Source: Methylobacter sp. BlB1
GTDB taxonomy: Bacteria; Pseudomonadota; Gammaproteobacteria; Methylococcales; Methylomonadaceae
NCBI RefSeq assembly: GCF_015476545.1
Contig: NZ_JADMKV010000005.1
Coordinates: forward strand, 1-64,000
Direction of reading: 5' to 3'
Length of the DNA stretch: 64,000 nt
Part shown: positions 7,501 to 44,907 of the stretch, one piece after another
Position numbering within the stretch: position 1 is the first letter of the stretch
Layout: every line of letters starts with the position of its first letter
Translations under genes and position numbers: made by a program
Notes under the pieces: model-generated
The model's database searches: none
Told to the model about the DNA's origin: nothing
The model's input: only the letters and a program-made list of their open reading frames with translations

Positions 7501-7655
7501 GGATAGAGCGTGACGACCTGAATGGTCGGATAGTCGACCTGGGGCAGGGCGGAGATCGGCAGCGCGCGGTAGCCGATGATCCCGACCAGCAGCAGGGCCA
7601 CCATCAGCAGCGATGTGGCGACCGGGCGCAGGATGAAGGTGCGGGACGGGTTCAT
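4563..7655 (-). CDS. mdtB: RND multidrug efflux permease, MdtB type
   Basis: Partner permease of the heteromultimeric RND pump, 1030 residues. The N-terminus ([72 protein letters not shown]) is MdtB-like. The TM4 Asp pair ([19 protein letters not shown]) and the TM10-11 segment [22 protein letters not shown] are present, so both permeases look competent. It overlaps mdtA by ATGA upstream and mdtC by 4 nt downstream, so the three genes are one translationally coupled unit. The pair could equally be called MuxB/MuxC after the Pseudomonas system. Confidence 0.93.
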
Positions 7656-8821
7656 GACGCTGGCCGTGCGGGTTCCCGGTTGACGAGATCCACCCTGGCG
7701 CCTTCGCGCAGCTTGTCGATGCCGTCGACCACGACCTGTTCGCCGGGTTTAAGCCCTTCGAGCACGGCGACCTTTTCGGCTTCGGCGGGGCCCAGTTTCA
7801 GCGGGCGCACGCTGACGGTCTTGTCCTCCTTCACGACATAGGCGAAGGCGCCGGGCGTTCCACGCTGAATGGCGGCAGCCGGTATGATCGTGGCGTCGCG
7901 CAATGTATCCACAGTCATCCTGACGTTGACGAACTGGTTCGGAAACAGGGCGTGGTCTTTATTATCGAACTGTGCCTTGAACCTGATGGTGCCTGTCGCG
8001 ATGTCGATCTGATTGTCCACGGCCACGAGCTTGCCCAGAGATAGGCGGGTATTGCCTGAGCGGTCGTATGCCTCGATAGGCAATGTTTCGCCGGCGCGCA
8101 GCCGTTTCATGACGGCCGGCAGATCGGCTTCAGGCAACGTGAATACGACCGTGATGGGCTGAATCTGCGTCAGCACGACCAGTCCATTGGTATCGGACGT
8201 TTTCACGATATTGCCCTTATCGACCAGCCGCAGACCCAGGCGCCCCGTGAACGGGGCCGTGATGCGCGTGTAGGTCAACTGCAGTTTGGCGTCAGCGATC
8301 AGCCCACGGTCGGTTTCCACAGTGCCCCGGTACTGTCTGACCAAGGCTTCCTGCGTGGCTGTCTGCTGCGCAGCGATGGAATCCTGCTCGAGCAGCGTTT
8401 GGTAGCGCTCCAGATCGAGCTGTGCATTTTTTAGCAGCGCTTCATCGCGGAGCAGCTGGCCTTCAGCCTGCATGAGCTGAGCCTGGAACGGGCGCGGGTC
8501 GATTTCCGCCAGCAGATCGCCTTCGCGCACTACCTGGCCTTCCTGAAAAGCGACACGGATCAGTTCGCCGTCGACACGCGATCGGATCGTCGCCGTATTG
8601 AGCGCCGTCACCGTGCCCAGCCCGTTCAGATAAATCGGGAAATCGCCCTGTCTGGCCGGCTCGGCTACAACAGCAACGGTGGAAAAGTCGGGCTTGCCCG
8701 GTTTTTCGGCATTTTGTTGTTGCGGCTGGTCGTTACGGGGCTTGATGAGATAGGCAGCCGTTATGATCGAAAGGAGGACAGCCAGCCCGATTAGAAGCAG
8801 CTTCAAGTTACGCGATTTCAT
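7652..8821 (-). CDS. mdtA: RND efflux periplasmic adaptor, MdtA type
   Basis: Membrane-fusion protein of 389 residues bridging the RND permeases to an outer-membrane channel. The N-terminus has a single membrane anchor (about residues 6-26, [21 protein letters not shown]) followed by a Pro/Gln-rich linker. The lipoyl/barrel-sandwich motif is split, with [22 protein letters not shown] and [22 protein letters not shown] before the coiled-coil hairpin and [17 protein letters not shown] after it; beta-barrel and membrane-proximal domains follow. It is first in the operon and would share its promoter with mdtB and mdtC. No regulator (TetR or two-component) lies next to it. Confidence 0.92.
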
Positions 8822-9256
8822 TTAATGGAGCGCTTCCTTCAATAAAGCGGAGAATAAAAATCTCAATATTAATGTTCAATGGTTGAGATGCAATAGCTAA
8901 GGTTTTTTATCGGGAAAGCCATAAAGGCTTAATGACTATCAATTTAAATCGTAAGACCACGAAATCCATGAAGAAAATTGTAATACTTCAAACCGGATCT
9001 GACGATTTTAAATATTGAGCCGGGCCGGGCATTTGCCATACATCCGTATTTTTAAACCTTTAAAAATACGGCGGTCAACTCTAGTGCCTCGTTTGGCGCT
9101 GAGGCCTGCCAATTCGGGCTGATGCTTGAACGCCCAAGCCAGATAGGCCGGTGAGATAGTTGCCTTGAGCGCGAGTGATGCGCGTTTACGCATCCGGCCC
9201 AACCCAGAGCGTGAAAAACAGCGCTCTGCAGGTGTGGGCCGGGCAGGGGCGATGAA
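8822..9256. other. Non-coding stretch with three inverted repeats
   Basis: This 435-bp gap separates mdtA from the PEP-CTERM gene. It contains a perfect inverted repeat at 9044-9071 (13-bp arms, 2-nt centre), a smaller one at 9177-9194 (GATGCG-6-CGCATC) and a longer imperfect hairpin at 9196-9240 whose inner stem is CAGAGCG/CGCTCTG. None is followed by a T-run. A 64-codon open frame at 9008-9202 on the minus strand runs through these hairpins and has no recognisable protein character. I see no supported gene here. Confidence 0.6.
9044..9071. repeat. Perfect 13-bp inverted repeat
   Basis: CCGTATTTTTAAA and its exact complement are separated by only CC. The near-zero loop makes a cruciform, dyad protein-binding site or transposon-derived end more plausible than an ordinary terminator hairpin. 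Confidence 0.75.
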
Positions 9257-9961
9257 TTAGACAGATACCCGATCAGACCGGCGTTTTCCTATAAAGCCCA
9301 GGCCGGCCAAAGCCGAGCCGAACAGCCATGCTGCGGCAGGGACAGGGACAGGGCTTACGTCGCTGACACCGACAGTGATTCCTCTCCAGTTCTCGGAGCC
9401 GTTCTCAGCCCATGAAATAGAGCTGAAAGTGCCCAGGAATTGGAGGGTGCCGTGTCCTTCGCCTAAATGAGTTGAAGACAGTATATTGCCGTTTCCGCTG
9501 TTCAGCGTATCGCAGCCCCAATAGCCGCAGCCGGAACTCAGGACTGTGAACGGCGCATCAAAAGTCCAGCTTGGGCCGTTAAAGCTGACGACGGCCATGA
9601 TTGGATTGGTTACCGGCGTTGAGAACGTAATTGTGTTCATCGGGGTGCCTTGGCCCAGGCGGAGGATATCGGTGTTCAAAGAATCTGGTGCGTTATCCAC
9701 TGTTGCACTGGTGTAGGCATTAGGCGACCAGTAATTTGCGCCGCCTGAGATTTGCGCGGAATATAACCCGCCGCTGTAGGCAACATTGACAGTAGACGAG
9801 TCCGCCAGCGTAATGATGCCTGAGGCTGATCCGCTGTTGCCGGCGCTTGCCGATACCCAGTCTGTCCAATAAACCGGGGCTGCGGCGGCGGTAGCCGGCG
9901 CAAAAGCGCTAATAAGTGCGACAGCGCCGATCATCTTCGGAAATGATAGAGAATGCTTCAT
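9257..9961 (-). CDS. PEP-CTERM sorting-domain exported protein
   Basis: A 234-residue secreted protein of unknown role. Residues 1-28 form a Sec signal peptide (positive MKH start, hydrophobic core, ATAAAAP cleavage region). The C-terminus has the exosortase-type tripartite signal: VPVPAAAWLF at about 205-214, a hydrophobic helix to about 225, then KRR at 226-228. This is the VPxPAA variant of the PEP motif. The middle is rich in Ser, Thr, Gly and Asn, with a Cys pair near 145-150. A Shine-Dalgarno AGGA lies about 11 nt before the ATG. Known members are processed by an exosortase and sent to the outer surface or matrix. No exosortase is in this window, but an exosortase-associated acyltransferase is encoded at 41066-41809. 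Confidence 0.82.
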   Translation of the reverse strand: MKHSLSFPKMIGAVALISAFAPATAAAAPVYWTDWVSASAGNSGSASGIITLADSSTVNVAYSGGLYSAQISGGANYWSPNAYTSATVDNAPDSLNTDILRLGQGTPMNTITFSTPVTNPIMAVVSFNGPSWTFDAPFTVLSSGCGYWGCDTLNSGNGNILSSTHLGEGHGTLQFLGTFSSISWAENGSENWRGITVGVSDVSPVPVPAAAWLFGSALAGLGFIGKRRSDRVSV

Positions 9962-10091
9962 TATTTAATTTTTCCTGATTTGAGTAGAGGGCTTAGTGGA
10001 GTTTCATATTTTATACCCTTGCCCAAACTGATCAATAAATAACGGATTTTTAAACGTAAATTCTCTAAGCCGACTAATTGAACAGTGCTTT

Positions 10092-10117
10092 GAAAAGCCC
10101 GGCATGAGATTTGCCGG
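10092..10117 (-). terminator. Possible weak terminator after the pentapeptide gene
   Basis: On the minus strand CCGGCA-7 nt-TGCCGG is followed by GC and a four-T run just past the stop of the pentapeptide-repeat gene. The stem is short and the T-run is minimal, so it may be inefficient. Confidence 0.4.
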
Positions 10118-10124
10118 TACTGCG

Positions 10125-12335
10125 TCATCCGGGCTTGGCCGCATTCTTCTGTTGTTTCACTGTATGCCGTAATTCCAGGCGTAATTGTTCCGGCATCGCA
10201 GCCAGGCCCTCGCAAGGTTTTTCAGCGTCTATTGCCCGGATCAAGGCGGTCGCCAGGCCAAAATCGGGATCATTCTCGGTGAAGTCATCCATGCCCCGCC
10301 TTGCGATGCCTACGGCAATTGAAGCATCGGAACAAGCCAGTCCGATCAGCTTCGGGTGCAGCACATGGGTTCGATAAGCATTCAGTTGCGCCGGTTTACT
10401 GTATTTGCAGTCCAGCAAGGTTGGATTATCGCTGTAGCAATCTTTCCGACTGGCCGCTTTGCCTGGCAACAAACGAGTGCCGGCGCGTTCCATACGGGTC
10501 TGGAAGGCGCTGAATTTTTCGGCGTCCAGTAACTGCTTGAAGGCTGTTTCCAACCGGTGCTGTTGCTGCTCATTCCAGTCCGACCATGCGCTGTCGGAAA
10601 TATAGATGCCGTCGAGATTGGCTTTCGACCAGTCAGCCCCTTGCAGTCGCGCTTCCCGCAATTCTGCGCCCTGTAGTTCCGCCAGGGTTAAATCCGCACC
10701 CTGCAGATTCGCAAAGACCATGTTGGCGCCTTGCAGATTCGCCTTGCGCAGGATGGTGCCCTGCAGCTTAGCGCCGCGCAGGTCCGCCCCCTGCAGCTTA
10801 GCGCCGCGCAGATCCACGCCCTGCAGGTTTGCGCCGCGCAGATCCACGCTCTGCAGGATCGCCCAACTCAGGTCGGCGCCCTGGAGATCCGCGCCGCGCA
10901 GATCTGCGCCCTGCAGATTCGCCTCGATCAATCCCGCGCCTTGCAGCTGCGTTCCCCCCAGGATGGCGCCCTGCAACTGCGTCTTATCCCAGCCGATCAC
11001 GCCCTGAAGTTTGGCTTTCAGCAGGACTGCACCCTGCAACTGGACATGCCGAATGTCGGCTTTGGGCAGCATTGCCCCATACAAATTGGCAAAGCGCAGA
11101 TCGCGATTTTGCAGGTTCAGCCCGTCGAATTCCTTGAAGGCCGCATCGCGAATCTGCTTGTTCGGGTCTGTTGCCCGCGTCAGCAGCGACAGGGAAACTT
11201 CCTTGGGCACAAGCCGGGCTTCTCTGAGGTCGAGATTGCGCGTAAAAAGGTCTAAATTGAACCATGAGCAAGGGCCCAGCACTACCTGAAGCATCGTGGC
11301 ATCGGTCTTGGCAGCCTCGGCTAAAGACGTGCAGGAGGCGGTGCCGTATTTATGGGCGGCAACGCTCAGCCATGACTCCGGCATTCTCCGGATCAGCCAG
11401 TCTTCGAGATAATAAGGGGTGTCCTCCGATTGGGACTCGTCATTCGGCGGAAAATAATAGGTCTGTACGGTAATGCTGCCGGGAACTACCGCGACAATAC
11501 TGAGCAGAATGATGAGCGGCACTGAGATCATCAATATCACCATGCCCTTTGGCTCAACGCCGGGCGGCTGCACGGGCCGGGGAGGGATTACCCGGAAGTG
11601 CCGGTTCGGCCAGCGCCGCTGGATCGACCGCGCCAGCCGATTCCATCCGAGGATGCCCAAATGCCGGAGCCATGCCGGCCAATAGCCCACGAGATTGAAG
11701 GCAAAATTCTGCCACCATTCCCGCGCCCTGTCCTGGGGTGAAGCAATCAGCGGCCATAGGGCGAGCAGCATGCCTGCATCGGTCCAGACCGAGAGGCGCT
11801 GAGACCAGGTGATGCCTTCGTCGTGGAACGGCAGAAAGCGGATTTGCGCAGCCAGCAATATGAATAAGGGCAGGGCAATGATAGTAGTGCCAACGACCAG
11901 CGACAGCAGCCAGTTGATTAGCCAGACATTGGAGCGTCCGACGATCAGATGGGTGAAAGGGAAGATGAACAGGCGGTCGCGTATTTGCTGCCCGGCATGC
12001 GTATCAGGCAGATCGCGGTCCAGGTTCCAGAGTTTATTGGAAAGCAGCTCCAGTTGCATGAGCAGGTTGAAGTGCAGCAGGACCAGCATCCACGGAGCAA
12101 AGGCGTAAAAGGTGGTCAGCGGTACTTCCACATCCAGAATCGGCAGTTTGATCGGGCTGATGCGCAGCATGTCTTCATGCGTGGTGCCCCAGACGATGAC
12201 GCCGAGATAGGCGGCGAATGCTATAAATGCGATATGAAGGGCGGCTACCGATTGCGATGCGGAGTTCGCTGAGTCCAGCAGTTTTTCAATATGCGGAGAG
12301 GTTTCCGGGTGAGCTGGCGGTGCAGTATGGGACAT
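10125..12335 (-). CDS. Multi-pass membrane protein with pentapeptide repeats
   Basis: A 736-residue protein of unknown function. The N-terminal half is membrane-embedded, with hydrophobic segments near residues 31-50, 75-94, 139-165, 185-198 and 264-289. A soluble linker follows. Pentapeptide repeats run from about 405 to 580 in a strict 10-residue register, mostly LQGAxLxxAx, which should fold as a right-handed quadrilateral beta-helix. The last ~150 residues are helical and contain several Cys. Pentapeptide domains are used as scaffolds or DNA mimics, and the membrane part suggests an anchored scaffold; that is inference. The ATG at 12335 has no strong ribosome-binding site. It lies alone between the PEP-CTERM and sorbosone-dehydrogenase-like genes. 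Confidence 0.85.
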   Translation of the reverse strand: MSHTAPPAHPETSPHIEKLLDSANSASQSVAALHIAFIAFAAYLGVIVWGTTHEDMLRISPIKLPILDVEVPLTTFYAFAPWMLVLLHFNLLMQLELLSNKLWNLDRDLPDTHAGQQIRDRLFIFPFTHLIVGRSNVWLINWLLSLVVGTTIIALPLFILLAAQIRFLPFHDEGITWSQRLSVWTDAGMLLALWPLIASPQDRAREWWQNFAFNLVGYWPAWLRHLGILGWNRLARSIQRRWPNRHFRVIPPRPVQPPGVEPKGMVILMISVPLIILLSIVAVVPGSITVQTYYFPPNDESQSEDTPYYLEDWLIRRMPESWLSVAAHKYGTASCTSLAEAAKTDATMLQVVLGPCSWFNLDLFTRNLDLREARLVPKEVSLSLLTRATDPNKQIRDAAFKEFDGLNLQNRDLRFANLYGAMLPKADIRHVQLQGAVLLKAKLQGVIGWDKTQLQGAILGGTQLQGAGLIEANLQGADLRGADLQGADLSWAILQSVDLRGANLQGVDLRGAKLQGADLRGAKLQGTILRKANLQGANMVFANLQGADLTLAELQGAELREARLQGADWSKANLDGIYISDSAWSDWNEQQQHRLETAFKQLLDAEKFSAFQTRMERAGTRLLPGKAASRKDCYSDNPTLLDCKYSKPAQLNAYRTHVLHPKLIGLACSDASIAVGIARRGMDDFTENDPDFGLATALIRAIDAEKPCEGLAAMPEQLRLELRHTVKQQKNAAKPG
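10596..11045. repeat. 30-bp-period coding repeat (pentapeptide region)
   Basis: The DNA encoding the repeat domain repeats every 30 bp around the core ctgca(g/a)...gc, each unit encoding two pentapeptides. About fifteen units are recognisable; the most uniform are around 10760-10930, where neighbouring units are nearly identical, which points to recent unit duplication. Confidence 0.75.
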
Positions 12336-12467
12336 GGCGGTGGATGCTGTTGCTGCCGACTGGTGATGTTTCAGTATAAATCAGCTGAATTAATCCTTCA
12401 TTAGGATTGCGCATTGATTTTCTATACGAGCTAGGGGACATGATCTTGATGGTTTACAGTAGAACGC

Positions 12468-13790
12468 CTATTTCGTAGCGGGAGTCACCCGCCAAATAGT
12501 GTTGCCGACGTCATCGGCGACAAGCAGCGCACCCGATTGGTCAACCGCCACGCCGACCGGGCGGCCCAGAGCATCACCGTCCGCGCTGACAAAGCCGACA
12601 AGTACATTCTTTGGTGGCAGGGTAGGCCGCCCGTCAACAAACGGCACAAAAATCACTTTATAGCCGCTCCGCGGTTCGCGGTTCCAGGAGCCGTGCTGAC
12701 CAATAAATGCCCCTCCTTTAAAGCGTTTCGGCAATAAATCGCCCTCATAGAAGACAAGCCCGAGCGAGGCTGTGTGTGTACCCAAGGCATAATCCGGCAC
12801 AATGGCTTTAGCCACCAGATCAGGCCGAGGCGGCTTCACCCTTGAATCGACATGCTGACCGTAATAGCTATAAGGCCATCCATAAAATGCGCCATCTTTT
12901 ACCGAAGTCATATAGTCAGGCACCAGATCACTGCCGATCTCATCGCGTTCATTGACGACTGTCCAGAGCGCGCCGCTCCGCGGTTCCCAATCCATGCCGT
13001 TCGGATTGCGCAAGCCCGAGGCAAAGATACGCCACTGGCCTGTTGCCGGGGCAACTTCCCAGATAGCGGCGCGGTTGGCCTCGTTTTCCATGCCGTTCTC
13101 GCCGACATTGCTGTTCGAGCCGACCGTGACATACAGTTTTGAACCATCGCGGCTGGCAATTACATTTTTGGTCCAGTGATGGTTGATGGGATCTGCCGGC
13201 AAATCGATCACCTTGACGCCGGTACCAGTGATCTGCGTTTCACCCGCACGATAAGGGAAACGCATCAGTTTATCAGTATCGGCGACATAAAAATCATTGC
13301 CGACGAGCGTCATGCCAAAAGGTGAGTTCAGTCCTTGCAGGAAGATTGTGCGCGTTTCGACGGTGCCGTCACCATTGGCATCACGCAGCAGCGTGATGCG
13401 GTTAGCGCTCGGTGGAGTTGCTCCCGCACGATCCATAAACCACTTCATGAGCCAGCCTTTAATGCCTTTGTCGCCTTCAGGATTGGGCGGGGCACTGGCT
13501 TCGGCGACCAGCACATCGTTGTTAGGGAGCACATAGAGCCAGCGCGGATGACTTAAGCCGGTGGCAAAGGCGCTCACCGCAAGCCCAGGGGCAGCCTTAG
13601 GCTTGGCATCTGCTGGCCAGCCTTTGGCAGGCGCGATATTGACAGTGGGTATTAGTGTTGGGTTGGGCGGCGGCAACTTCGGATGAGGACCGATGCCGGC
13701 CTGTTCGGGTAACGTCGCGACATCACCACAGGCGTTTAAAGTCAGTAAAAGCAGACAAGCGATCAGGTGAAAGAGGGCAGAGCGTTGCAT
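12468..13790 (-). CDS. Sorbosone dehydrogenase-like (PQQ-type) beta-propeller lipoprotein
   Basis: I start at ATG 13790, giving 440 residues beginning [23 protein letters not shown]. This is a lipoprotein signal with lipobox LNAC, and GGAG sits 7 nt upstream. The frame extends further to 13898, but that extension would bury the signal peptide. The body fits the soluble glucose/sorbosone dehydrogenase family: a six-bladed beta-propeller with [50 protein letters not shown] and [12 protein letters not shown]. Family members oxidise sugars or aldoses with PQQ, but many are uncharacterised, so the substrate is unknown. It would sit in the outer membrane facing the periplasm. Confidence 0.85.
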
Positions 13791-35290: not shown

Positions 35291-36418
35291 ATGAAACATC
35301 CGGAATTTCCTTTATCCGATGAATTAATTTATTTAAATCATGCGGCTGTATCACCGTGGCCTAAAAGAACTAGCGAGGCAGTCGCAAAGTTCGCAGAACA
35401 AAATACGCTATACGGATCATATTTTTATCCAGAATGGCTGGCTAAAGAATCTGAATTACGGTCCCAGCTCCAAATTTTATTAAACGCTCCCTCTGCAGAT
35501 GATATTGCTTTAGTTAAAAATACTTCTGAAGCTCTATCTTTTGTCGCCTATGGCCTGGATTGGAAATCCGGAGACAATATTGTCAGCAGTAATGAAGAAT
35601 TTCCTTCTAATAGATTACCTTGGCAATCTCTGGCCCAACAAGGTATTGAATTTCGTCAAGCTGACTTAAGAAATTCTACTTCTCCTGAGGACGCTTTGTT
35701 TGAGTTGGTAGATGGTAATACCCGTTTGCTAACGATAAGCTCTATACAATTCGCTTCGGGTCTGCGTCTGGATCTGGAAAAGATAGGCGCATTCTGTAAA
35801 CAGCGCAATATCTTTTTCTGTATTGATGCAATTCAAAGCCTAGGTGCGGTTCAGTTTGATGTGCAGGCTTATCAAGCTGATTTCGTTATGGCTGATGGTC
35901 ACAAATGGATGTTAGGTCCTGAGGGCTTGGGTGTTTTCTATACTACGCCTACAGCTAGAGATAGACTAAAATTGACTCAATACGGTTGGCACATGATGAA
36001 AGACACCTATAATTATGAAAATAAGTCATGGGAAGTTCATCCTACTGCCCGTCGTTTTGAATGTGGCAGCCCGAATATGCTGGGAATTCATGCACTCTCT
36101 GCCAGTCTGTCGTTATTGCTGGAAACCGGGATGACAGCTGTTGAATCTTCGATTATGGAAAAAACAAACTATTTAATGGAACAGATTCATAGAAACGAGA
36201 AGTTAATTTTATTATCTCAGAAGCGAAATCAATTAAATTCCGGTATTATAATATTCAAGCACGGAACAGCCCCGAATAATGCTTTTTATAGATACTTACA
36301 GAAAAATGGCATTGTCTGTGCTTTACGCGGTGGCGGAATACGGTTATCCCCACATTTTTATAATAATAATGAAGAATTAAAGAAAGCGATATCTATAATG
36401 GAACTGTATTGCGATTAA
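35291..36418 (+). CDS. Class V aminotransferase (cysteine desulfurase/IPN-epimerase-like)
   Basis: ATG 35291 preceded by TTTGGGG gives a 375-residue PLP enzyme starting MKHPEFPLSDELIYLNHAAVSPWP; the open frame reaches back to 35177 but that part is low-complexity. The PLP lysine is in VMADGHKWMLGPEGLGVFY and the cofactor Asp/His environment is in FFCIDAIQSLGAVQFD. FECGSPNMLGIHALSASL is typical of fold-type I class V enzymes. A catalytic cysteine of true IscS/SufS enzymes is not evident, so an epimerase- or lyase-like activity is as likely. The gene begins the AT-rich block and is followed by the small periplasmic protein gene. Confidence 0.82.
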   Translation: MKHPEFPLSDELIYLNHAAVSPWPKRTSEAVAKFAEQNTLYGSYFYPEWLAKESELRSQLQILLNAPSADDIALVKNTSEALSFVAYGLDWKSGDNIVSSNEEFPSNRLPWQSLAQQGIEFRQADLRNSTSPEDALFELVDGNTRLLTISSIQFASGLRLDLEKIGAFCKQRNIFFCIDAIQSLGAVQFDVQAYQADFVMADGHKWMLGPEGLGVFYTTPTARDRLKLTQYGWHMMKDTYNYENKSWEVHPTARRFECGSPNMLGIHALSASLSLLLETGMTAVESSIMEKTNYLMEQIHRNEKLILLSQKRNQLNSGIIIFKHGTAPNNAFYRYLQKNGIVCALRGGGIRLSPHFYNNNEELKKAISIMELYCD

Positions 36419-36515
36419 CAGTTCCCGTTAGATTTCTCTATATAAAAACGACTCTATTAATAACCGGTTATCCAGTTTGCAACAAATCGCCCTATTCTTT
36501 CGATTACGATTGAGA

Positions 36516-36956
36516 ATGAGCTTGATGTTCATTCTATTTATCTTTTTGCTGAGCCAATTCGCTTCAGCCGCGCCTCCTGTAATTGAAAAACAACAAAACA
36601 TAGTCATTCCTGTCATCAATAGCGCTAATCAGCAGGATACTATCAGCCGAAATGGGTTAAGTGCTATTTTCAAGATGCGTTTACTGCGTTGGAACGATGG
36701 TTCCGCGGTGACAGTTTTTGTACTCAATGATGATGATCCATTACATAAACAGTTTTGCAAACAGATATTAAATGTTTTTCCTCATCAAATGCGCCGAAAT
36801 TGGGATAAGTTAGTATTCAGCGGATCAGGTCAGGCTCCAATTCTTGTAGAAAGCAAGGAGGAAATGATCGAAAAAATAGAAAAAACACCGGGGTCTGTAG
36901 GTTATTTAAATTTAAGTGATTTAACAAATGGTATCAAGCGGTTGGATATTAAATAA
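36516..36956 (+). CDS. Small PstS-like periplasmic protein
   Basis: ATG 36516 gives 146 residues beginning MSLMFILFIFLLSQFASAAPPV, a Sec signal; the frame opens at 36477. The mature part (VIPVINSANQQDTISRNGLSAIFKMRLLRWNDGSAVTVFVL, then GSVGYLNLSD) matches the short phosphate-ABC-transporter-like binding proteins that contain only one lobe of a PstS fold. No transport ATPase or permease is nearby, so it is unlikely to be part of a Pst transporter. The stop is 10 nt before the porin start, so the two are cotranscribed. Confidence 0.72.
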   Translation: MSLMFILFIFLLSQFASAAPPVIEKQQNIVIPVINSANQQDTISRNGLSAIFKMRLLRWNDGSAVTVFVLNDDDPLHKQFCKQILNVFPHQMRRNWDKLVFSGSGQAPILVESKEEMIEKIEKTPGSVGYLNLSDLTNGIKRLDIK

Positions 36957-36966
36957 GGAAATGTGC

Positions 36967-38190
36967 ATGTATGCTGGCAAATTTAATTTAAATAACCTTA
37001 CAAGACTGCTCATTTGCAATGTTGTGGTAATAACCCCCTTTATTTCCAGCAATGCAATCGCAGCTGAAAAAAACTGGCTGCCGGAGCTGCCGGATACAGT
37101 ACAAATACATGGTTTTCTTTCTCAAGCATTGATTCACACATCAGATAATAATTTCTTTGGTACAACTGATGACAATATTTCTGATGATTTCAGAGAATTA
37201 GGAATTAATGGCTCATGGCGTATCATCCCTGATTTGCAAATAGCGATGCAGGTAGTATGGCGGGATGCAGGAAAAACTGATGAACAAGGTTTGCGTATTG
37301 ATTATGGACTGGCTGATTATCGCCTATACTCATCTGAGGACAGTTTGTTAGGCATTAAAGCCGGAAGAGTTCCAACGCCATTAGGTTTATATAATGACAC
37401 TCGAGATGTCGCATCTACCAGACCAAGTATATTTTTGCCACAATCAATTTATTTTGACATCAATCGAAACAGTGCTCTGTCTGCTGATGGTGGCTATTTC
37501 TATGGTGAGCAAAATACCGATTGGGGGGATTTTTCATTTAATGTCGGCATTGTTGTTCCTCGAAGTGACGACCCTGACCTAACAGCTCAACTCGCAAAGA
37601 ATATTCAAGCATATGGAGATACCTCTTGGATTAGCCGCTTAAATTATGAGTGGCGTGGCGGTGAAGTTCGACTTGCCATTACATATGCTGAGTTCAATGC
37701 TCACTTTTCGCCCATACCTGCTCCAATTAAATTTAATGAAGGGCAGTTCCAATTTAAACCACTGATTTTCTCTGCTCAATATAATGCAGAAAAATGGTCA
37801 CTAACTGGAGAATATGAATTCCGTGGCCAACGATTGAATAACTTTGGCCTATTTCCTGATTCTGATACGACAGGTGAAGGTTATTATCTGCAAGGAATTT
37901 ACAAATTTACATCTTATGTGGAAGGTATGGTTCGATATGATCAGCTTATCTGGGATAAAGATGATAAACATGGAGATAAGTTTTCTGCTAACACTGGTGC
38001 GCCAGCCTATTCACGATTTGCTAAAGATTGGACTGTTGGTTTGCGATTTAAATTAATTCCAGGTTTGCTTCTCAGTACCGAATATCATCGTATAAACGGG
38101 ACAGGAACAATATCCAGATTAGAAAATCCTCCTGGAGCTACAAAGCAACATTGGGATCTGTATGCAATAATGTTGTCATATGATTTTTGA
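36967..38190 (+). CDS. Outer-membrane porin-like beta-barrel protein
   Basis: AAGGAA (36955-36960) sits 6 nt before ATG 36967, giving 407 residues with a Sec signal ending NAIAAEKN. The rest is a series of amphipathic strands (VQIHGFLSQALIHTSDNNFFGT, GIKAGRVPTPLGLYNDTRD, EKWSLTGEYEFRGQRL, WDLYAIMLSYDF) ending in Phe, the usual C-terminal signal for Bam-mediated insertion. It resembles OprP/porin-like proteins encoded next to PstS-like genes. The solute is unknown. It is convergent with the GGDEF/EAL gene, with six bases between the stops. Confidence 0.82.
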   Translation: MYAGKFNLNNLTRLLICNVVVITPFISSNAIAAEKNWLPELPDTVQIHGFLSQALIHTSDNNFFGTTDDNISDDFRELGINGSWRIIPDLQIAMQVVWRDAGKTDEQGLRIDYGLADYRLYSSEDSLLGIKAGRVPTPLGLYNDTRDVASTRPSIFLPQSIYFDINRNSALSADGGYFYGEQNTDWGDFSFNVGIVVPRSDDPDLTAQLAKNIQAYGDTSWISRLNYEWRGGEVRLAITYAEFNAHFSPIPAPIKFNEGQFQFKPLIFSAQYNAEKWSLTGEYEFRGQRLNNFGLFPDSDTTGEGYYLQGIYKFTSYVEGMVRYDQLIWDKDDKHGDKFSANTGAPAYSRFAKDWTVGLRFKLIPGLLLSTEYHRINGTGTISRLENPPGATKQHWDLYAIMLSYDF

Positions 38191-38196
38191 TTTAAA

Positions 38197-41076
38197 TCAG
38201 ATTATTTCCATTTCAGACTGAAGCTGAAATTTACTATGTAAGTCGAATTGTGGTTCAGGCATAGGTTTGCCTATACCATAACCTTGAGCGTAGTTTACCC
38301 CCATTTCTGATAATTCTTTCAATATCATTTCATTCTCAACAAACTCAGCAATTGTTTTTATCCCCATTCCCTGCCCGACATCATTAATTGCTTTTACGAA
38401 AAGCTGATCTTCTCTATTATTGGCAAGATTCTTAATAAAGCCGCCATCGATTTTTAAATATTGGACAGGTAATTGTTTTAGATGGCTCATAGATGAAAAA
38501 CCGACCCCAAAATCATCCAAAGCAAATTTACCGCCAATATTTGTGACATAAGTCATGAAATCACGAGCTGCTTGTATATTCGTGACAGCCTGCGTTTCCA
38601 GAACTTCGAAAATGAATTTGTGAGCAGGAACATTCCACCTATCAAGATGCTCAGCTATTATGGAAAATGCATTAGGATTTGAGAGCATTTCACCGGACAA
38701 GTTAATGGATAAATGAATGTCCAGTCCCTGCTTAATAAATAAAGACTGTTTTTTAAAAGCGAGATCAATGACTCTTTGATCAATTTTGGTGATGAGCCCA
38801 AAGTGTTCGGCAATACCGGTGAACATACCTGGCGGGATAATTTCTCCATTTTCATCAATCATCCGTAAAAGACATTCATAGTGGGAAATACTTTTATCAG
38901 CTATTCTCATAATAGGCTGATAATAAAGAATAAAGCGGTCTTCTTCTAACGCCTTTTCAATTTTTGCCTTCCAATTTACTCTATGCCGTATTTCATCCCT
39001 AGCTAGATCCTCCATAGAAGCGAGACACCACCCTCCTCTACCCATTTGTTTTGCTTTATACATGGCGATATCTACGGTTGCCATCAACTCTTGGGAAGAG
39101 AAACCGGGAGCTGGAAAAATTAGCATGCCCGCACTGATAGTCACACCTAAATCAATATTGTTAACTGTAACTTTAACGGTGGCAATCTCGGCGCATATTT
39201 TCTGTACTACTTTCTCGGCATGGTCCTGATCAATACAATATGAAATTACTACAAATTCATCTCCGCCTAATCTGGCAACAATATCCGTATCACGAATTAT
39301 TGAAAGCAGTTTATCAGCGACTTTAATCAATAATTCATCGCCCACATTATGACCGCTGCTATCATTAATATTTTTGAATTGGTCTATATCAAAAAGAATA
39401 AGGGCTCCTTTTTGATTATACCGATTGGCAATGGTTAGTGCGTGCTCCAATTCCTGATCAAATCTGCGCCGGTTATATAAATTGGTTAATGGATCATGAT
39501 CTGCGAGCCATGATAATTTTTTTTCTGTTATTCTACGCTCAGTCAAATCCAGACCAACGGATAATATTTCAGTTTTTTTATTATTTTTTATAAGAGTAAA
39601 AAACCATGAAATATATAATTCATTCCCTTTTGATGAAAATAGTATGCATTCATAACGAAATGTTCTTCTCTGCTGGTTGGATATTTCTTCAATTGCATTA
39701 GAAATAGTTCTTATATCCTCATGACCGAAAACCAGGTTAACGAATAGTTGCCGTTTTAATTCATTTTCGCTATAACCGATCTGTTTCTCGGCATATTTAT
39801 TGCTCATTACAATTCTTCCGTTATTATCAATTATTATAATAATAACCTGAGCTGTATTAAGAATATTAGATACTAGATTTTTTTCTTGTTGCAGTTCAAC
39901 ACTCCGTTCGGCCAGTCGTTGCGTACGCAGATCAACATCTCTATCTAGGTTTTTTAACGTAAGGATCAAATCTTGCGTGGCATTATTTAATATATCAATT
40001 TCATCATTAAATAATTTATGCCCAGAAGAAACGGGCATAATTTCATTTACTTTTAAATAATTTTTCTTGGCTATCCAGGGCAGCAAAGCAATGAATGCAT
40101 TTAAACGCCTCATTGGTTTAATCAGTAAAAGTAATAGAATCACACCTGCCAAGATTAAGCTTATTGTGCCGCTTAGAGCATATAACATCGATGATCTATG
40201 AATATCGATTAATTCTTCACTTAAATTATCAATAATAACAAGATCAGCAATATTATTGTCTTTGCTGAATGGGAAAATAATTATTTCATAATCATTATTA
40301 TTGTATTCAAAGCGTGCTTTTTTTTGGGGTAAACTATCTGGCAGTTTATTCATAACAGCCAGCAAGAGCGGAAAACTTTTTTCATACTCCGTTAATGCAA
40401 TGATCGCTTTTGACCATTTATCAAGAGTCGGTTTTGTCGAGACTATTTCATTTTCATTATTCTGTACTAAAATTCCAATTTCCTTACCGGTAATGGCTTT
40501 CATCCTTAGCACCATATCGGCTAGGTCTCTTCCAAATATAAATACCCCAATAAACTCTCCATTATGCAAAAAAGGATAAGCCTTATATTGCACGCAATTG
40601 ATGCTACAAAGAATTTTTTCAAAAGGCTCTTCATTTTCAAATACATAATTGAGCCACGGTGAAAAAACTTCCTTATTTAATACTGTATCGCCCCAACTGT
40701 TCAGCAAATCTCCTTTTTTTGAAAATAAATAAGCGGATTTGATATCAGACTCAAGCTCTATTTTGAACCAATTGGCGTTAATAATTTTTTCTATCTGATC
40801 CAATGCCTGCTGAGATGATAGATCAAGACTAATGACAGCGGGAATGATCCAGGTAATATCAATTTGATCAAGCTTTGACTGTTGCAGAATACTATCGAAT
40901 GCTTGTTGATAAAAGCGATGAACCCTATCTCGCTCCTGTGAATAATTTTTTTCTAATGTTAGATTACCGAATATAAAAACACTGCCTGAAGATGTCAGAA
41001 TGGCTATGCTTACGGCTAAAATTGCTTTCCATGTAAGGCTCAGGAACCTGCCTTTTTTCTTAGTTTTATCTTGCAT
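38197..41076 (-). CDS. Membrane sensor PAS-GGDEF-EAL c-di-GMP enzyme
   Basis: ATG 41076 (959 residues) is preferred over a TTG four codons upstream. Two membrane helices (about 18-38 and 299-320) enclose a ~260-residue periplasmic sensor domain of double-CACHE-like character. HAMP/coiled-coil sequence, a PAS domain (about 398-515), GGDEF (604-608) and EAL domains follow. RDTD five residues before GGDEF is an inhibitory I-site. The EAL motif reads E-C-L at 734-736, keeping the metal-binding Glu, and the loop-6 DDFGVGFSS, ETQAVTN and LKIDGGFI are intact. Both cyclase and phosphodiesterase activities are therefore possible. The start lies 11 nt inside the upstream acyltransferase gene. Confidence 0.93.
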   Translation of the reverse strand: MQDKTKKKGRFLSLTWKAILAVSIAILTSSGSVFIFGNLTLEKNYSQERDRVHRFYQQAFDSILQQSKLDQIDITWIIPAVISLDLSSQQALDQIEKIINANWFKIELESDIKSAYLFSKKGDLLNSWGDTVLNKEVFSPWLNYVFENEEPFEKILCSINCVQYKAYPFLHNGEFIGVFIFGRDLADMVLRMKAITGKEIGILVQNNENEIVSTKPTLDKWSKAIIALTEYEKSFPLLLAVMNKLPDSLPQKKARFEYNNNDYEIIIFPFSKDNNIADLVIIDNLSEELIDIHRSSMLYALSGTISLILAGVILLLLLIKPMRRLNAFIALLPWIAKKNYLKVNEIMPVSSGHKLFNDEIDILNNATQDLILTLKNLDRDVDLRTQRLAERSVELQQEKNLVSNILNTAQVIIIIIDNNGRIVMSNKYAEKQIGYSENELKRQLFVNLVFGHEDIRTISNAIEEISNQQRRTFRYECILFSSKGNELYISWFFTLIKNNKKTEILSVGLDLTERRITEKKLSWLADHDPLTNLYNRRRFDQELEHALTIANRYNQKGALILFDIDQFKNINDSSGHNVGDELLIKVADKLLSIIRDTDIVARLGGDEFVVISYCIDQDHAEKVVQKICAEIATVKVTVNNIDLGVTISAGMLIFPAPGFSSQELMATVDIAMYKAKQMGRGGWCLASMEDLARDEIRHRVNWKAKIEKALEEDRFILYYQPIMRIADKSISHYECLLRMIDENGEIIPPGMFTGIAEHFGLITKIDQRVIDLAFKKQSLFIKQGLDIHLSINLSGEMLSNPNAFSIIAEHLDRWNVPAHKFIFEVLETQAVTNIQAARDFMTYVTNIGGKFALDDFGVGFSSMSHLKQLPVQYLKIDGGFIKNLANNREDQLFVKAINDVGQGMGIKTIAEFVENEMILKELSEMGVNYAQGYGIGKPMPEPQFDLHSKFQLQSEMEII

Positions 41077-41809
41077 TAATATAAGCAATATTTTCTATTA
41101 CATTTTGTTCGCTTAATTCACTACTAATTTTATCAGACAGACTACGAAACTCTGGAGTTAAATTTTTATAAGTAATTTCTGGATAAAACACATGAGGAAC
41201 TCGAGTTCCAAAAAACTCAAAAGGTTGGCCTATTTGATCAAATTGAACGCCGAGACGACGTAATAAAATTGCAAGTTTAGGCTCTACCATGGCAAGACAG
41301 TATTCTATATTCCTCGCAAATGCAAAATGCATAGCAGCTGATACAAGGCACATCGGTAAGTAATTAATTGGGTAACGATTATCTGGATGGGCTATTTTTT
41401 CAGATTGTTTAAAAGACTCTCGATCATTATTGTCAGAAAGCCTCCGCCTGAAAGAGGGCATAATAGCCATTCTTGAAACTTCACCTATGTTTGTTTTCTC
41501 CGCCATGTTTACGCGGGCGGTATTAAAATCAAAGGGTTTTCCATAAAACTTTTCGATGGGAAGCTGATTGTTGAGTTTTTCTATCTGAGGAATCAATCGG
41601 ATATAACCAATAGCTTGATTGCTTGGTTTATGAAATAGCAAACAATGCAGAGAATATTCATCATATTCATCAAATTCGTGATACCCGAATTCTTCAATAT
41701 ACACTTCATGGCGTAACTTATAAGCGATTTTTCTTAATTCTTCAGTATTGGCATTGACTATCTGAAAATATTTTGAATAATGACTTCCTATATCTTCTTT
41801 GTTCTTCAT
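41066..41809 (-). CDS. PEP-CTERM/exosortase-associated acyltransferase (AHL-synthase-like)
   Basis: 247 residues of a GNAT-like fold related to N-acyl homoserine lactone synthases. YFQIVNANTEELRKIAYKLRHEVYIEEFGYHEFDEYDEYSLHCLLFHKPSNQAIGYIRLI is the conserved N-terminal part, EVSRMAIMPSFRRR the acceptor loop, and YCLAMVEPKLAILLRRLGVQFDQIGQPFEFFGTRVP the C-terminal motif of the exosortase-system acyltransferase family. In other genomes this family travels with exosortase and surface-polysaccharide genes; its product is not known. Here it is instead joined to a c-di-GMP enzyme gene and divergent from a methyltransferase. Confidence 0.85.
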   Translation of the reverse strand: MKNKEDIGSHYSKYFQIVNANTEELRKIAYKLRHEVYIEEFGYHEFDEYDEYSLHCLLFHKPSNQAIGYIRLIPQIEKLNNQLPIEKFYGKPFDFNTARVNMAEKTNIGEVSRMAIMPSFRRRLSDNNDRESFKQSEKIAHPDNRYPINYLPMCLVSAAMHFAFARNIEYCLAMVEPKLAILLRRLGVQFDQIGQPFEFFGTRVPHVFYPEITYKNLTPEFRSLSDKISSELSEQNVIENIAYINAR

Positions 41810-41976
41810 AGCTATCCATTTCTCTTTTTTGTAAGCACTTTAAAATCTACACACTAATGGTAGATTTTTGATTAATATTAGTTCACTATAATTTTATATG
41901 ATTCTAATGAGATCATAGTCTATTTTATAGATAAACATAGAATAAAAACGCTATTTATCCTAACAGGAAAAATTAT
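41810..41976. promoter_or_regulatory. AT-rich divergent promoter region
   Basis: 167 very AT-rich bases separate the divergent acyltransferase and methyltransferase genes and must hold both promoters. Several TATAAT-like sequences occur (for example TATAATTTTATATG at about 41887), but none can be chosen with confidence. Confidence 0.5.
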
Positions 41977-42765
41977 ATGCCTAAATTCAAAGGACCTGTT
42001 GACGTTGATTACCTCAAGAAAGCAGGCGAAATTTTTGCACCTATTAAGCAAATTAGCTATAAAAAAATGCAAATTAAGCAAGGTGATACAGTTCTTGATT
42101 TGGGATGTGGCCCTGGTGTTGATGCTATTGAACTGGGGCGATTAGTATCGCCGGCTGGTCTTGTTATTGGTGTTGATTACGATGAAGGTATGTTAGCAAA
42201 GGCATTAGAACAGGTGGAAATTTCAAAGATGAGTCGTATTGTCAGCTTTCAACAAGGAGATGCCAGCTCTTTGGCTTTTGCAGATAATTACTTTGACAGC
42301 TGCCGAAGTGAGCGACTTTTTATGCACCTAAACAATCCAGAACAGGTAATAGGCGAAGTCCGTAGAGTCACAAAACCAGGAGGAAGTGTGGTAATTATCG
42401 ATACAGATTGGGCAAGTCTGTCTATCGATTGTCAATCAGTCAAAATAGAGCGATTGTTATCAAATTATCGCTTGGAAAAGCTTATTCCAAATAGTTATTC
42501 AGGGCGAAGTTTATACCGATTGTTCAGCAAGGCATATTTTAGTGACATTCAAATTGATGTTTTTCCTCTATATACCAATGATCTGGAATTGTTTTATACC
42601 TTGTCGTTACAGGAAAGCGTTGAAAATAAAGCTTTATCAGATAATATTATTACTCAAAAGGAATTGGAGCAATGGCGCATGGAATTGAAGCAGGCCGCAT
42701 TAGAGAACTCTTTCTATTGCAGCGTCAATATGATCATGGTGAGTGGCATCAAACCTTTTAGCTAA
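41977..42765 (+). CDS. Class I SAM-dependent methyltransferase
   Basis: 262 residues with methyltransferase domain 11. Motif I is VLDLGCGPGVDAIELG, motif II GVDYDEGMLAKA, and VSFQQGDASSLAFADNYFDSCRSERLFMHL covers motifs III-IV. The acidic residue after motif I that contacts SAM is present. The substrate is unknown; the UbiE-like spacing suggests a small molecule. It is the last gene of the AT-rich block and is convergent with tatD. Confidence 0.85.
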   Translation: MPKFKGPVDVDYLKKAGEIFAPIKQISYKKMQIKQGDTVLDLGCGPGVDAIELGRLVSPAGLVIGVDYDEGMLAKALEQVEISKMSRIVSFQQGDASSLAFADNYFDSCRSERLFMHLNNPEQVIGEVRRVTKPGGSVVIIDTDWASLSIDCQSVKIERLLSNYRLEKLIPNSYSGRSLYRLFSKAYFSDIQIDVFPLYTNDLELFYTLSLQESVENKALSDNIITQKELEQWRMELKQAALENSFYCSVNMIMVSGIKPFS

Positions 42766-42773
42766 GAATCTAG

Positions 42774-43550
42774 CTAATCTCCAAATTTAAAAAGTCTTTT
42801 AAAATTTTCTGTACTCTGTTGCGCGATCTGTTGAAAACTTGTGTTTCTTAATTCAGCTATATGTTCAGCTACATAACGTACGTAGGTAGGATAATTTGGC
42901 TTTCCACGGAATGGAACCGGCGCTAAGTAAGGCGAATCAGTTTCAATAAGAAAGCGGTCAGCAGGTACTTTTTTTGCTACCTCCTTGATTTCTTTGGCAC
43001 TGTTAAACGTCACAATACCGGAAAAAGAAATATAAAATCCCAGATCTAGCGCTCTTTCGGCAAAATCCCAGTCTTCGGTAAAACAATGAATAACCCCGCC
43101 TATGTCACGAGCGTTCTCTTCTTTCAAAATTCGTAATGTATCTTGCTTTGATTCGCGGGTATGAATGATCAGCGGTTTTTTTAGAATCTTTGCGGCGGTA
43201 ATATGCTTTTTGAAACGTTGGTGTTGCCAATCAAGATCGCCTTTACTGCGGAAATAGTCAAGGCCTGTCTCCCCTATTGCAATAACCTTTTTCTCTTGGC
43301 CTAAAGCGACAAGCTCATCAACACTAGGATCCTTGCCGTCCTGAACATTCGGATGAACTCCAACGGTAAGGGAAATTTGAGAATAACCTGAGACCAGATC
43401 ATGCATGGCCGGATAGGATTCTAAATCAATGGCTATGCATAGCATATGTTCAATTTGATTATTCTCCGCTTCCTTCATGAAACAGGAAAAATCGTGTTGG
43501 TAGGGTTCCAGATCGATGCGATCCAGGTGGCAATGAGAGTCGATAAGCAT
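42774..43550 (-). CDS. TatD family DNase/hydrolase (YcfH)
   Basis: 258-residue TIM-barrel metal hydrolase. Metal ligands are HCH in DSHCHLD near the start, Glu in AIGETGLDYFR, His in IIHTRES and HCFTEDW, and Asp in LIETDSPYLAPVPFRGKPN. It is the last gene of the holB-tmk run, as ycfH is in E. coli, which supports the YcfH identity. The family has 3'-5' exonuclease or D-amino-acyl-tRNA-like hydrolase activity; the physiological role is unsettled. Confidence 0.92.
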   Translation of the reverse strand: MLIDSHCHLDRIDLEPYQHDFSCFMKEAENNQIEHMLCIAIDLESYPAMHDLVSGYSQISLTVGVHPNVQDGKDPSVDELVALGQEKKVIAIGETGLDYFRSKGDLDWQHQRFKKHITAAKILKKPLIIHTRESKQDTLRILKEENARDIGGVIHCFTEDWDFAERALDLGFYISFSGIVTFNSAKEIKEVAKKVPADRFLIETDSPYLAPVPFRGKPNYPTYVRYVAEHIAELRNTSFQQIAQQSTENFKRLFKFGD

Positions 43551-43559
43551 TCGATAAAA

Positions 43560-43910
43560 TCACATGGTGTGGGTTGATCGGTCAGAACCTAAACTGCCTG
43601 CTAAATACATTTCTATTTTATTGCGAGCCATGCCGCCATCCTGGTCACTGAACTGTACACCAATGCCGGTTGCTCGATAGCCTTCCGAACCCGGCGGCGT
43701 TTTCCAGATTATTTTCCCGGCAATAGGAAGTCGTTCAGTTTCTTCCATTAAATTTAACAGCATGAAAACTTCCTGGCCCATTTGATATTCCCGATTAGTG
43801 GGAATAAACAGGCCGCCATTGATCACAAAAGGCATATAAGCTGCATATAAAGCGTTTTTATCTTTAATTGACAGCGACAATATACCTTGTCTGGGGGATG
43901 ATTCTGCCAT
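43560..43910 (-). CDS. pilZ: Type IV pilus PilZ protein
   Basis: A 116-residue single PilZ domain. ALYAAYMPFVINGGLFIPTNREYQMGQEVFMLLNL and GIGVQFSDQDGG match the T4P-associated PilZ of Pseudomonas and Xanthomonas. It lacks the RxxxR c-di-GMP binding motif, as the true PilZ does, so it acts through partners (the PilB ATPase and FimX in Xanthomonas) rather than direct ligand binding. It lies between holB and tatD with 4- and 9-base gaps, the common position in pseudomonads. Confidence 0.9.
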   Translation of the reverse strand: MAESSPRQGILSLSIKDKNALYAAYMPFVINGGLFIPTNREYQMGQEVFMLLNLMEETERLPIAGKIIWKTPPGSEGYRATGIGVQFSDQDGGMARNKIEMYLAGSLGSDRSTHTM

Positions 43911-43914
43911 GGTA

Positions 43915-44907
43915 TTATTTGCTCAAGTTAATTTCAGACCATTTTATTAAGATCTCTTCAAACATCAATTGTTTATTGATTGGAGAATCCAGTCGCTGGC
44001 GAGTTGCCAGTAATAAGTCATACAATTTGTAAACTCTTTTTAATTCTAGCTGTTGTGACATTTCTTTCAAGGAATCTGCCAAGTCCGGGTTATATAAATT
44101 TTCAATATTTGCCGAATAAGAACATTTAATTAAATCGATAATCCAGGATGTAATCCAGAACAATAACGGAGATTCAGGCAGCTTATACCAATCTTCCGCA
44201 ATCATGACAGGATTGCGCTGTCGTCTTGCGATGCCCATCCACGACTTGAAGCACTCATGACGCATGCCAGTATACCCTTCATCCGCATATTGCTGGGCTA
44301 ACAATGGCGCTCCTCTAGCCAGCCCGAATAGCAATTCTGCATTTTCCTGAACATTTTGCTGCTTAAGCCATGCAAGCGTTGTCTCTCTGGCTGGAGTGTT
44401 AATTACCAGCTTCTGACATCGGCTGACTATCGTTGCGGGTAATTTTGCCGGTTTATCTGTAATTAGGATAATGAGAGTGCGCTCTGTCGGCTCTTCCAGG
44501 CATTTTAGAAAGGCATTGGCTGCTGCATGATTCATCTGGTCGGCCGGACTGACAATAACGACGCGATAAGCTTCGAATTGAGGTTTTAAGGTCAGTTGAA
44601 TGATTAAGTTGCGGATTTGGGCAATCGTAATGCTTTTGCCGACTTCTTCAGGCTGAATATTAATAAGGTCAGGATGCGTTTCGGCATTAAGCAGTTTGCA
44701 GCTGTCACAGGAACCGCAATATAAACCATCGGACTGGGGATTTGCGCAAAGCAGAGAAAAAGCGAACTGGCTAGCTAAATATTGCTTGCCAAGCCCTCTG
44801 TTACCAGTAATAAGCAAAGCCTGTGGAATGCGCTTCTGAGTAATATAACTGTGAAGGTGCTCCCAGTTGGGCTTTAGCCAGGGCAATAATGTATTAGACA
44901 TTCTCAT
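43915..44907 (-). CDS. holB: DNA polymerase III delta' subunit
   Basis: 330 residues of the clamp-loader AAA+ fold. TGNRGLGKQYLASQFAF is the degenerate Walker A, CGSCDSCKLLNAETHPDL the zinc module (with the earlier Cys), and AANAFLKCLEEP with SRCQKL the SRC motif. The delta' subunit opens the beta-clamp interface within the tau/gamma complex and has no ATPase of its own. The start overlaps the tmk stop by ATGA. Confidence 0.93.
   Translation of the reverse strand: MRMSNTLLPWLKPNWEHLHSYITQKRIPQALLITGNRGLGKQYLASQFAFSLLCANPQSDGLYCGSCDSCKLLNAETHPDLINIQPEEVGKSITIAQIRNLIIQLTLKPQFEAYRVVIVSPADQMNHAAANAFLKCLEEPTERTLIILITDKPAKLPATIVSRCQKLVINTPARETTLAWLKQQNVQENAELLFGLARGAPLLAQQYADEGYTGMRHECFKSWMGIARRQRNPVMIAEDWYKLPESPLLFWITSWIIDLIKCSYSANIENLYNPDLADSLKEMSQQLELKRVYKLYDLLLATRQRLDSPINKQLMFEEILIKWSEINLSK

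Follow-up and report, generated by a model that had tools for sequence, protein, structure and literature searches.

The acyltransferase–sensor locus

The window analysed here is a stretch of 64,000 nucleotides (nt) from Methylobacter sp. BlB1 (contig NZ_JADMKV010000005.1, handle C183 below). On its minus strand it carries a gene for an acyltransferase of the family TIGR03694, followed by a gene for a large membrane sensor predicted to turn over cyclic di-GMP (c-di-GMP). The open reading frames (ORFs) and other features around the pair are the following.

41066-41809, minus strand: TIGR03694 acyltransferase, 247 aa (ORF list and profile matches)
38197-41076, minus strand: membrane sensor with the domain order dCache_3-PAS-GGDEF-EAL, 959 aa, predicted c-di-GMP turnover enzyme (Pfam)
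41066-41076, minus strand: overlap of sensor start and acyltransferase stop, 11 nt (sensor ATG to acyltransferase TAA)
41977-42765, plus strand: class I S-adenosylmethionine-dependent methyltransferase, divergent from the acyltransferase (Methyltransf_31, 80.5 bits)
41810-41976, no strand: region between the methyltransferase and acyltransferase genes, presumed divergent promoter region (ORF ends)
36928-38190, plus strand: putative porin-like protein, 420 aa, convergent with the sensor
36477-36956, plus strand: small PBP-superfamily-like protein, 159 aa (PBP_like_2, 22.8 bits, under the cut-off of 27)

The original prediction, made from the letters of the window, had described an 11-nt same-strand overlap between the acyltransferase stop and the PAS-GGDEF-EAL start, and the ORF coordinates confirm it. 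From its first possible start, a TTG, the sensor ORF spans 38197-41088 (minus strand), and the ATG lies at 41076.

Recurrence of the gene pair

An acyltransferase query and a query made from the N-terminus of the sensor were each run against 151 genomes of the family, and most genomes with close relatives of one or the other proved to have the two genes adjacent. Alignment searches covered 237 family genomes, with both clades defined at E <= 1e-60. By family we mean the GTDB family, which we take to be Methylomonadaceae; NCBI taxonomy places Methylobacter luteus in Methylococcaceae, Methylococcales. The acyltransferase clade is found in 20 of the 237 genomes and the sensor clade likewise in 20, with 17 genomes having both. 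In 16 of these 17 the pair is adjacent on one strand with the acyltransferase first. The 16 genomes (G000 to G003, G008, G034, G080, G031, G078, G030, G063, G013, G085, G116, G102, and G022) belong to six genera (g1, g6, g11, g20, g28, and g29, where g1 is Methylobacter, the genus of the window genome). In G071 the acyltransferase and the sensor are on separate contigs, each at an end and oriented in a way that is compatible with adjacency. Three genomes (G108, G069, and G020) have the sensor clade without the acyltransferase clade. The window genome gives 15 GGDEF matches in 4.87 Mb, and since the same-strand arrangement recurs in 16 genomes despite this number, the pairing is more than chance. 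Over its N-terminal 359 residues the sensor shares 92% identity with its counterpart in M. luteus IMV-B-3098 and 87% with that in M. marinus A45. It is clear from the six genera that the two families are neighbours well beyond the single strain; a restriction to this strain, which had been named as a case that would refute the original prediction, is thus excluded.

The translational coupling that had been suggested fares less well. The 11-nt overlap is present in G000, G001, and G002 only, and elsewhere the same gene order on the same strand comes with gaps, which in the other 12 genomes (G003 with its interrupted acyltransferase aside) amount to 4, 4, 12, 24, 24, 24, 28, 28, 28, 31, 38, and 170 nt (the last in G022), as determined from coordinates with mechanically called sensor starts. 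Since the overlap is thus restricted to Methylobacter, translational coupling is at most local.

The surroundings recur as well. In 16 of the 20 acyltransferase loci the gene divergent from the acyltransferase is the methyltransferase; in the remaining four it is missing (G002), not adjacent (G030 and G078), or off the contig (G022). Of the 17 sensor loci that have the downstream flank on the contig, 15 include a relative of the porin-like protein close to the sensor and 14 include one of the PBP-like protein. When a sensor model was run against 369 class-level genomes, scores of 570-594 bits were obtained only in G000 and G013, followed by 10 other genomes at 151-190 bits (E <= 1e-40).

Cassette divergence and sensor conservation

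Unexpectedly, a strongly divergent synthesis cassette is located beside a nearly constant c-di-GMP sensor. In genus g11 the five sequences fall into type I (G063 and G013, the latter Methylotuvimicrobium buryatense 5G) and type II (G085, G116, and G102). Between the types, the acyltransferases are 53-57% and the methyltransferases 55-57% identical, with a synonymous divergence (dS) of 2.2-3.1 or saturated. The flanking proteins TatD (93-95%), HolB (91-95%), the sensor (95-96%), and the porin-like (93-95%) and PBP-like (95-97%) proteins, both of the latter without G116, are nearly the same, with dS values of 0.17-0.55. Along the DNA of G013 and G085 the identity is above 90% at the tatD end, about 50-70% through most of both cassette genes, and back to 87-98% at the sensor start. 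On account of these sharp identity edges, the acyltransferase and the divergent methyltransferase look like an exchangeable cassette, with its edges at the tatD end and the sensor start.

In g11 the trees are in conflict because the best grouping of the sensor is rejected with the acyltransferase (p 2.6e-5) and with the methyltransferase (p 0.0018); in the opposite direction, a single type II clade is not rejected with the sensor (p 0.068). The groups tested here were named after the trees had been seen. An origin of the divergent g11 cassette outside the genus was considered and is not supported, as both types group together, though without strong support, in the trees of the acyltransferase (support 77/92), the methyltransferase (75/81), and both joined (94/93); old types within the genus and an unsampled donor would both fit.

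A similar case is found in Methylobacter. G000 and G002 are sisters according to seven neighbouring housekeeping genes (support 100/100) and to the sensor (92/98), and they are close in TatD (96% identity, dS 0.26), HolB (93%, 0.24), the sensor (96%, 0.53), the PBP-like protein (96%, 0.22), and the porin-like protein (86%, 0.58). Residues 1-300 of the sensor are even 98% identical. The acyltransferases, in contrast, are 61% identical with a dS of 1.09, and a sister relationship of the two genomes is rejected in their tree (p 0.0014), which prefers to group G000 with G003, a grouping that the sensor tree in turn rejects (p 0.034). At the methyltransferase site of G002 only a 13-residue match to the end of the protein is seen (E 0.027).

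Since the cassette genes are the fastest in other pairs too, as between G003 and G001 (acyltransferase 67% and methyltransferase 65%, versus 79-91% for TatD, HolB, sensor, porin-like, and PBP-like proteins), fast evolution contributes to the divergence. Positive selection on the acyltransferase was also considered and is not shown by the ratio of nonsynonymous to synonymous divergence, which is 0.08-0.24.

A sensor that responded to the product of its neighbour would be expected to bear traces of a cassette change in its ligand domain. For the question of whether the sensor follows its cassette, we counted the positions fixed differently in the two g11 types. The five sequences, a small sample, give 73 such positions for the acyltransferase, 84 for the methyltransferase, 5 for TatD, and 3 for HolB. 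In residues 1-560 of the sensor there are 7, of which positions 2, 3, and 7 are at the start by the junction and positions 329, 426, 430, and 465 come after the periplasmic domain, which itself has none. A specific acyl product tied to the sensor, which the original prediction had considered possible, is argued against by this lack of type-specific positions in the periplasmic domain.

A tentative reading, which we consider possible and somewhat improbable, is that the near-fixed c-di-GMP sensor serves as a chassis for interchangeable N-acyl-lipid cassettes, either the methyltransferase with an N-acyl amino acid synthase (NAS) or a NAS of the FeeM type (see below). If this were true, close relatives among the methanotrophs would make a surface-active or signalling lipid of differing chemotype under the same regulatory input, a lipid counterpart of swapped O-antigen or pheromone alleles. 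In any event, the divergent cassettes provide natural strain pairs with differing synthases and near-equal sensors.

The acyltransferase and sensor proteins

The acyltransferase scores 176.8 bits with the TIGR03694 model exosort_acyl (cut-off 111.95) and belongs to this family by score. The Pfam models Acetyltransf_5 (40.5 bits), FeeM (36.5 bits), and Autoind_synth (26.2 bits, cut-off 24) match above their cut-offs. The family of LuxI-type autoinducer synthases is not its best match (26.2 against 176.8 bits). Among solved structures, phmmer found only the GNAT protein SACOL1063 (E 0.28). An AlphaFold2 model made from 18 sequences (pLDDT 80.1) has FeeM (2G0B) as its best Foldseek match (E 3.7e-8, TM 0.55/0.72), followed by acyl-homoserine lactone (AHL) synthases. 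In the VIA comparison TofI (Z 16.2), plain GNATs (15.9), and FeeM (15.8) are tied, ahead of LasI (14.4), and because of this tie the fold alone does not fix the substrate. All 18 aligned acyltransferases share residues R33, E45, D47, D50, R71, E110, and R113, and presumably these seven charged positions are LuxI-like. Judged from family and fold, we regard the protein as a predicted N-acyl amino acid-type synthase with a putative N-acyl product.

In the sensor, dCache_3 (76.3 bits, residues 51-289), PAS (31.7 bits), GGDEF (158.8 bits), and EAL (208.7 bits) are all above the Pfam cut-offs. The GGDEF string with the upstream RxxD is present in 17 of 18 full-length sensors, the metagenome-assembled genome G022 having GDDEF, and two more sensors are cut by contig ends and fall outside this count; the EAL motif residues are present in 9 aligned sensors. 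With the motif residues that we assume to matter in place, the protein is by its sequence a predicted c-di-GMP enzyme with GGDEF and EAL domains. A model of the periplasmic domain (pLDDT 76.5, pTM 0.65) retrieved, among the Foldseek matches listed, chemoreceptor dCache domains at low TM values of 0.24-0.44 by query length. None of 20 sensors has, within its first 330 residues, the string R.WY, which we take to be a mark of dCache domains that bind amino acids.

Other synthases beside c-di-GMP genes

Two of the genomes with the sensor and without the acyltransferase clade carry another synthase beside the sensor. In G108 and G069 the sensor gene is followed, after 26 and 22 nt and on the same strand, by a gene for a FeeM-family protein (193 and 198 aa), and the Pfam FeeM model scores 76.6 and 77.5 bits (cut-off 27). 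It has no blastp match to the window acyltransferase at E 1e-5 and no solved relative by phmmer up to E 1, and the G108 protein used as a query matches in 2 of 151 genomes only, including its own (E <= 1e-15).

G046, a genome of the same order and another family, has the same kinds of gene in a same-strand row (L149:6971-12508). It starts with a TIGR03694 gene (L149:6971-7801, 207 bits, 29% identity to the window acyltransferase), and relatives of the PBP-like protein (L149:7914-8225, 55% identity) and the porin-like protein (L149:8387-9610, 43% identity) come next, the latter upstream of the sensor. The row ends with a dCache_3-PAS-GGDEF-EAL gene typed by Pfam (L149:9629-12508, 28% identity over residues 3-390). 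With the same gene kinds in another order, this row appears hard to explain by plain synteny.

Further branches of TIGR03694 were viewed in 36 chosen stretches, which are a selection of the matches. In six of them (L134, L138, L140, L144, L146, and L148) the acyltransferase has a GGDEF-EAL gene in its vicinity together with a gene of about 710-725 aa, a possible second c-di-GMP context for the family. In L138, the only one confirmed by Pfam, the region 5696-13060 encodes a TonB receptor, a CHASE8-PAS-GGDEF-EAL protein, and a YfiR-like protein. The same methyltransferase family is divergent from the acyltransferase in L138, L144, and L148. In G057, from outside the family, a TIGR03694 acyltransferase gene immediately follows a DGCcoil-GGDEF gene of the same strand (L132:6989-9666), and L116:7093-9696 has two tandem acyltransferases of the TIGR03694 kind followed by a ThiF-family gene.

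Exosortase and the flanks of the locus

According to the original prediction, this acyltransferase family normally sits with exosortase genes. In the window genome TIGR02602 exosortase matches occur on contigs C186 and C152, only the one on C186 being above the cut-off, and none is found on the window contig C183 (119,525 bases). An exosortase was thus found elsewhere in the genome, as had been proposed for checking, but not near the acyltransferase. An exosortase above the cut-off is present in 14 of the 17 paired genomes and in 89 of the 151 family genomes; the three remaining paired genomes are G030 (best score 31.5 bits, 100% complete), G031 (none, 99%), and G071 (none, 75%). The PEP-CTERM substrate proposed at 9257-9961 is plausible, since the protein ends in VPVPAAAWLFGSALAGLGFIGKRR and scores 25.0 bits with the VPLPA-CTERM model TIGR03370, just under the cut-off of 25.35; a TIGR02595 search of its own genome gave no match, with controls equally silent. 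The PEP-CTERM part of the earlier idea is therefore compatible with the data but not specific to the pair, and the exosortase/PEP-CTERM system as its main partner is weakened by the empty window contig and by the pair in G030 and G031 without an exosortase above the cut-off.

The regulatory elements around the pair were analyzed by a consensus scan, which gave 11 promoter-like sites versus 18.7 expected and 3 terminator-like sites versus 2.5 expected, with no promoter-like site in the intergenic region 41810-41976; such counts carry no information. No Rfam element reaches the gathering threshold in 36000-44000, and neither Pfam nor NCBIfam gives a match to the porin-like protein at E 0.01. Further away, three ORFs on the minus strand (1462-8821; 1034, 1030, and 389 aa) overlap at their ends and resemble in size a resistance-nodulation-division efflux set.

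A proposed module and its alternatives

We propose, with a probability of roughly 0.52, that the locus is a co-expressed N-acyl-lipid and c-di-GMP module of Methylobacter-group methanotrophs. The acyltransferase would make an N-acyl lipid, and the divergent methyltransferase may tailor this product or its precursor. The sensor, a membrane-bound enzyme with both GGDEF and EAL domains, would read a periplasmic cue through dCache_3, probably helped by the PBP-like and porin-like proteins. With acyltransferase and sensor in one transcription unit, lipid production would be co-expressed with the c-di-GMP enzyme, and the N-acyl product would be made within a surface or matrix programme that the sensor enzyme helps to set. 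The starting points are the domains, the recurrent pairing, the second pairing with a FeeM-type gene, the row in G046, and the divergent cassette beside the near-constant sensor; from these we infer the single transcript, the product and its tailoring, the cue, the direction of the c-di-GMP change, and the phenotype. That predicted synthases of two families recur next to one family of c-di-GMP enzymes suggests life in biofilms or on surfaces as the setting in which they act. Weak support by analogy comes from two systems, as described in the available excerpts of the papers. A mutant of Methylomonas LW13 in a PEP-CTERM-type NAS did not form the usual polysaccharide band (PMC11072679), and in the N-acyl tyrosine clusters of Stieleria the NAS is near methyltransferases, one of them UbiE-like, and a ThiF gene (PMC12479983).

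Several observations weigh against the proposed module. Three genomes of g7 (G009, G035, and G081) keep the methyltransferase and the acyltransferase without the sensor, and in G020 the sensor has no upstream synthase, its downstream side being off the contig and no FeeM relative having been found in the genome. In G003 the acyltransferase is broken by an insertion sequence (HTH_Tnp_1 and rve ORFs, L093:7950-10432) while the sensor is intact. The 17 paired genomes all belong to one family, and the pairing may persist partly by descent. A terminator-like site is found within the acyltransferase gene (41209-41196, minus strand), to which we give little weight at 3 sites versus 2.5 expected. The two analogies are also limited, as the UbiE-like methyltransferase beside the NAS was judged by the authors of that study less likely to be a tailoring enzyme (excerpt of PMC12479983), and the LW13 mutant also failed to grow in the gradient, with two mutants in unrelated genes behaving alike (excerpt of PMC11072679).

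A closed loop, in which the signal made by the synthase is exported and bound by the adjacent dCache domain and changes c-di-GMP in the manner of a LuxI/LuxR pair, is suggested by the fold shared with AHL synthases, by the adjacent genes, and by the ligand-binding dCache domains that are nearest to the sensor domain among solved folds. We nevertheless consider it unlikely, as the g11 cassettes differ as much as they do without one type-specific fixed position in the periplasmic domain of the five sequences, and as the acyltransferases of G000 and G002 have diverged to 61% beside the 98% identical sensor N-termini. The lack of the R.WY string also counts against it, while a promiscuous dCache domain may fit a constant sensor. 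Because no cassette-specific change is fixed in the periplasmic domain, we favour co-expression with an independent cue over the closed loop.

Equally improbable in our judgment is that the local output of the sensor switches the activity or export of the acyltransferase, directly or through an effector. There is precedent in fusions of NAS with PilZ, a putative c-di-GMP-binding domain, and in a cAMP-activated NAS cited in the excerpted text of the same paper (PMC4897644), but the window acyltransferase has no PilZ match at E 0.01. The string FRRRxxD, which resembles RxxD and was considered as a c-di-GMP-binding sign of the pair, was discarded, because it is also present in three sensor-less genomes and RxxE is found in many other branches, and it thus gives no sign of binding. 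Slightly less probable still is mere linkage, where unrelated genes would be kept together by a conserved neighbourhood. The fabF-tatD neighbourhood is indeed conserved in many loci, and each of the two genes is found without the other in three genomes. However, the pair is also present in G031, G078, G030, and G008, where tatD and fabF fall outside the stretch examined, two genomes combine the same sensor with a neighbour from another NAS family, and the G046 row combines another gene order with another acyltransferase branch. The co-expressed module accordingly remains the reading that we prefer.

Comparison with known systems

No paper describing the acyltransferase–sensor pairing was found among the matches listed, most subscription journals being outside the search, and no paper at all was returned when NAS was combined with GGDEF or when exosortase was combined with acyltransferase, GGDEF, and operon. 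The excerpt of PMC2907700 holds nothing on the pair, while the NAS/PEP-CTERM neighbourhood is repeated in that of PMC7293339. The original prediction had known of no description of the pairing as a system, and among the matches listed this stands as far as the pair itself is concerned, but not for the wider connection, since the NAS-PilZ fusion is an earlier link between NAS and c-di-GMP (excerpt of PMC4897644).

Compared with the TIGR03694 acyltransferases of PEP-CTERM/exosortase systems, the window gene is alike in model score and in its FeeM-like fold, and differs in being paired with a c-di-GMP enzyme on a contig without exosortase. With LuxI-type AHL synthases it shares the fold (TofI and LasI as given above) and an Autoind_synth score above the cut-off, but it fits TIGR03694 far better. 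The Stieleria clusters resemble the locus in having a NAS near a methyltransferase and a ThiF gene, the latter being found by acyltransferases here in L116, whereas c-di-GMP, PEP-CTERM, and exosortase have 0 occurrences in the available text of PMC12479983. A link between NAS and c-di-GMP is shared with the N-acyltyrosine synthases Nas343 and Nas354, for which c-di-GMP regulation through a C-terminal PilZ-like domain was proposed in a paper that, in its excerpted text, calls the physiological role of bacterial N-acyl amino acids unclear (PMC4897644). There the putative c-di-GMP-binding domain is fused to the synthase, whereas here a separate neighbouring gene encodes a GGDEF-EAL enzyme. The pairing is thus a variant of known NAS systems, and the link between NAS and c-di-GMP itself has a precedent (PMC4897644, excerpt).

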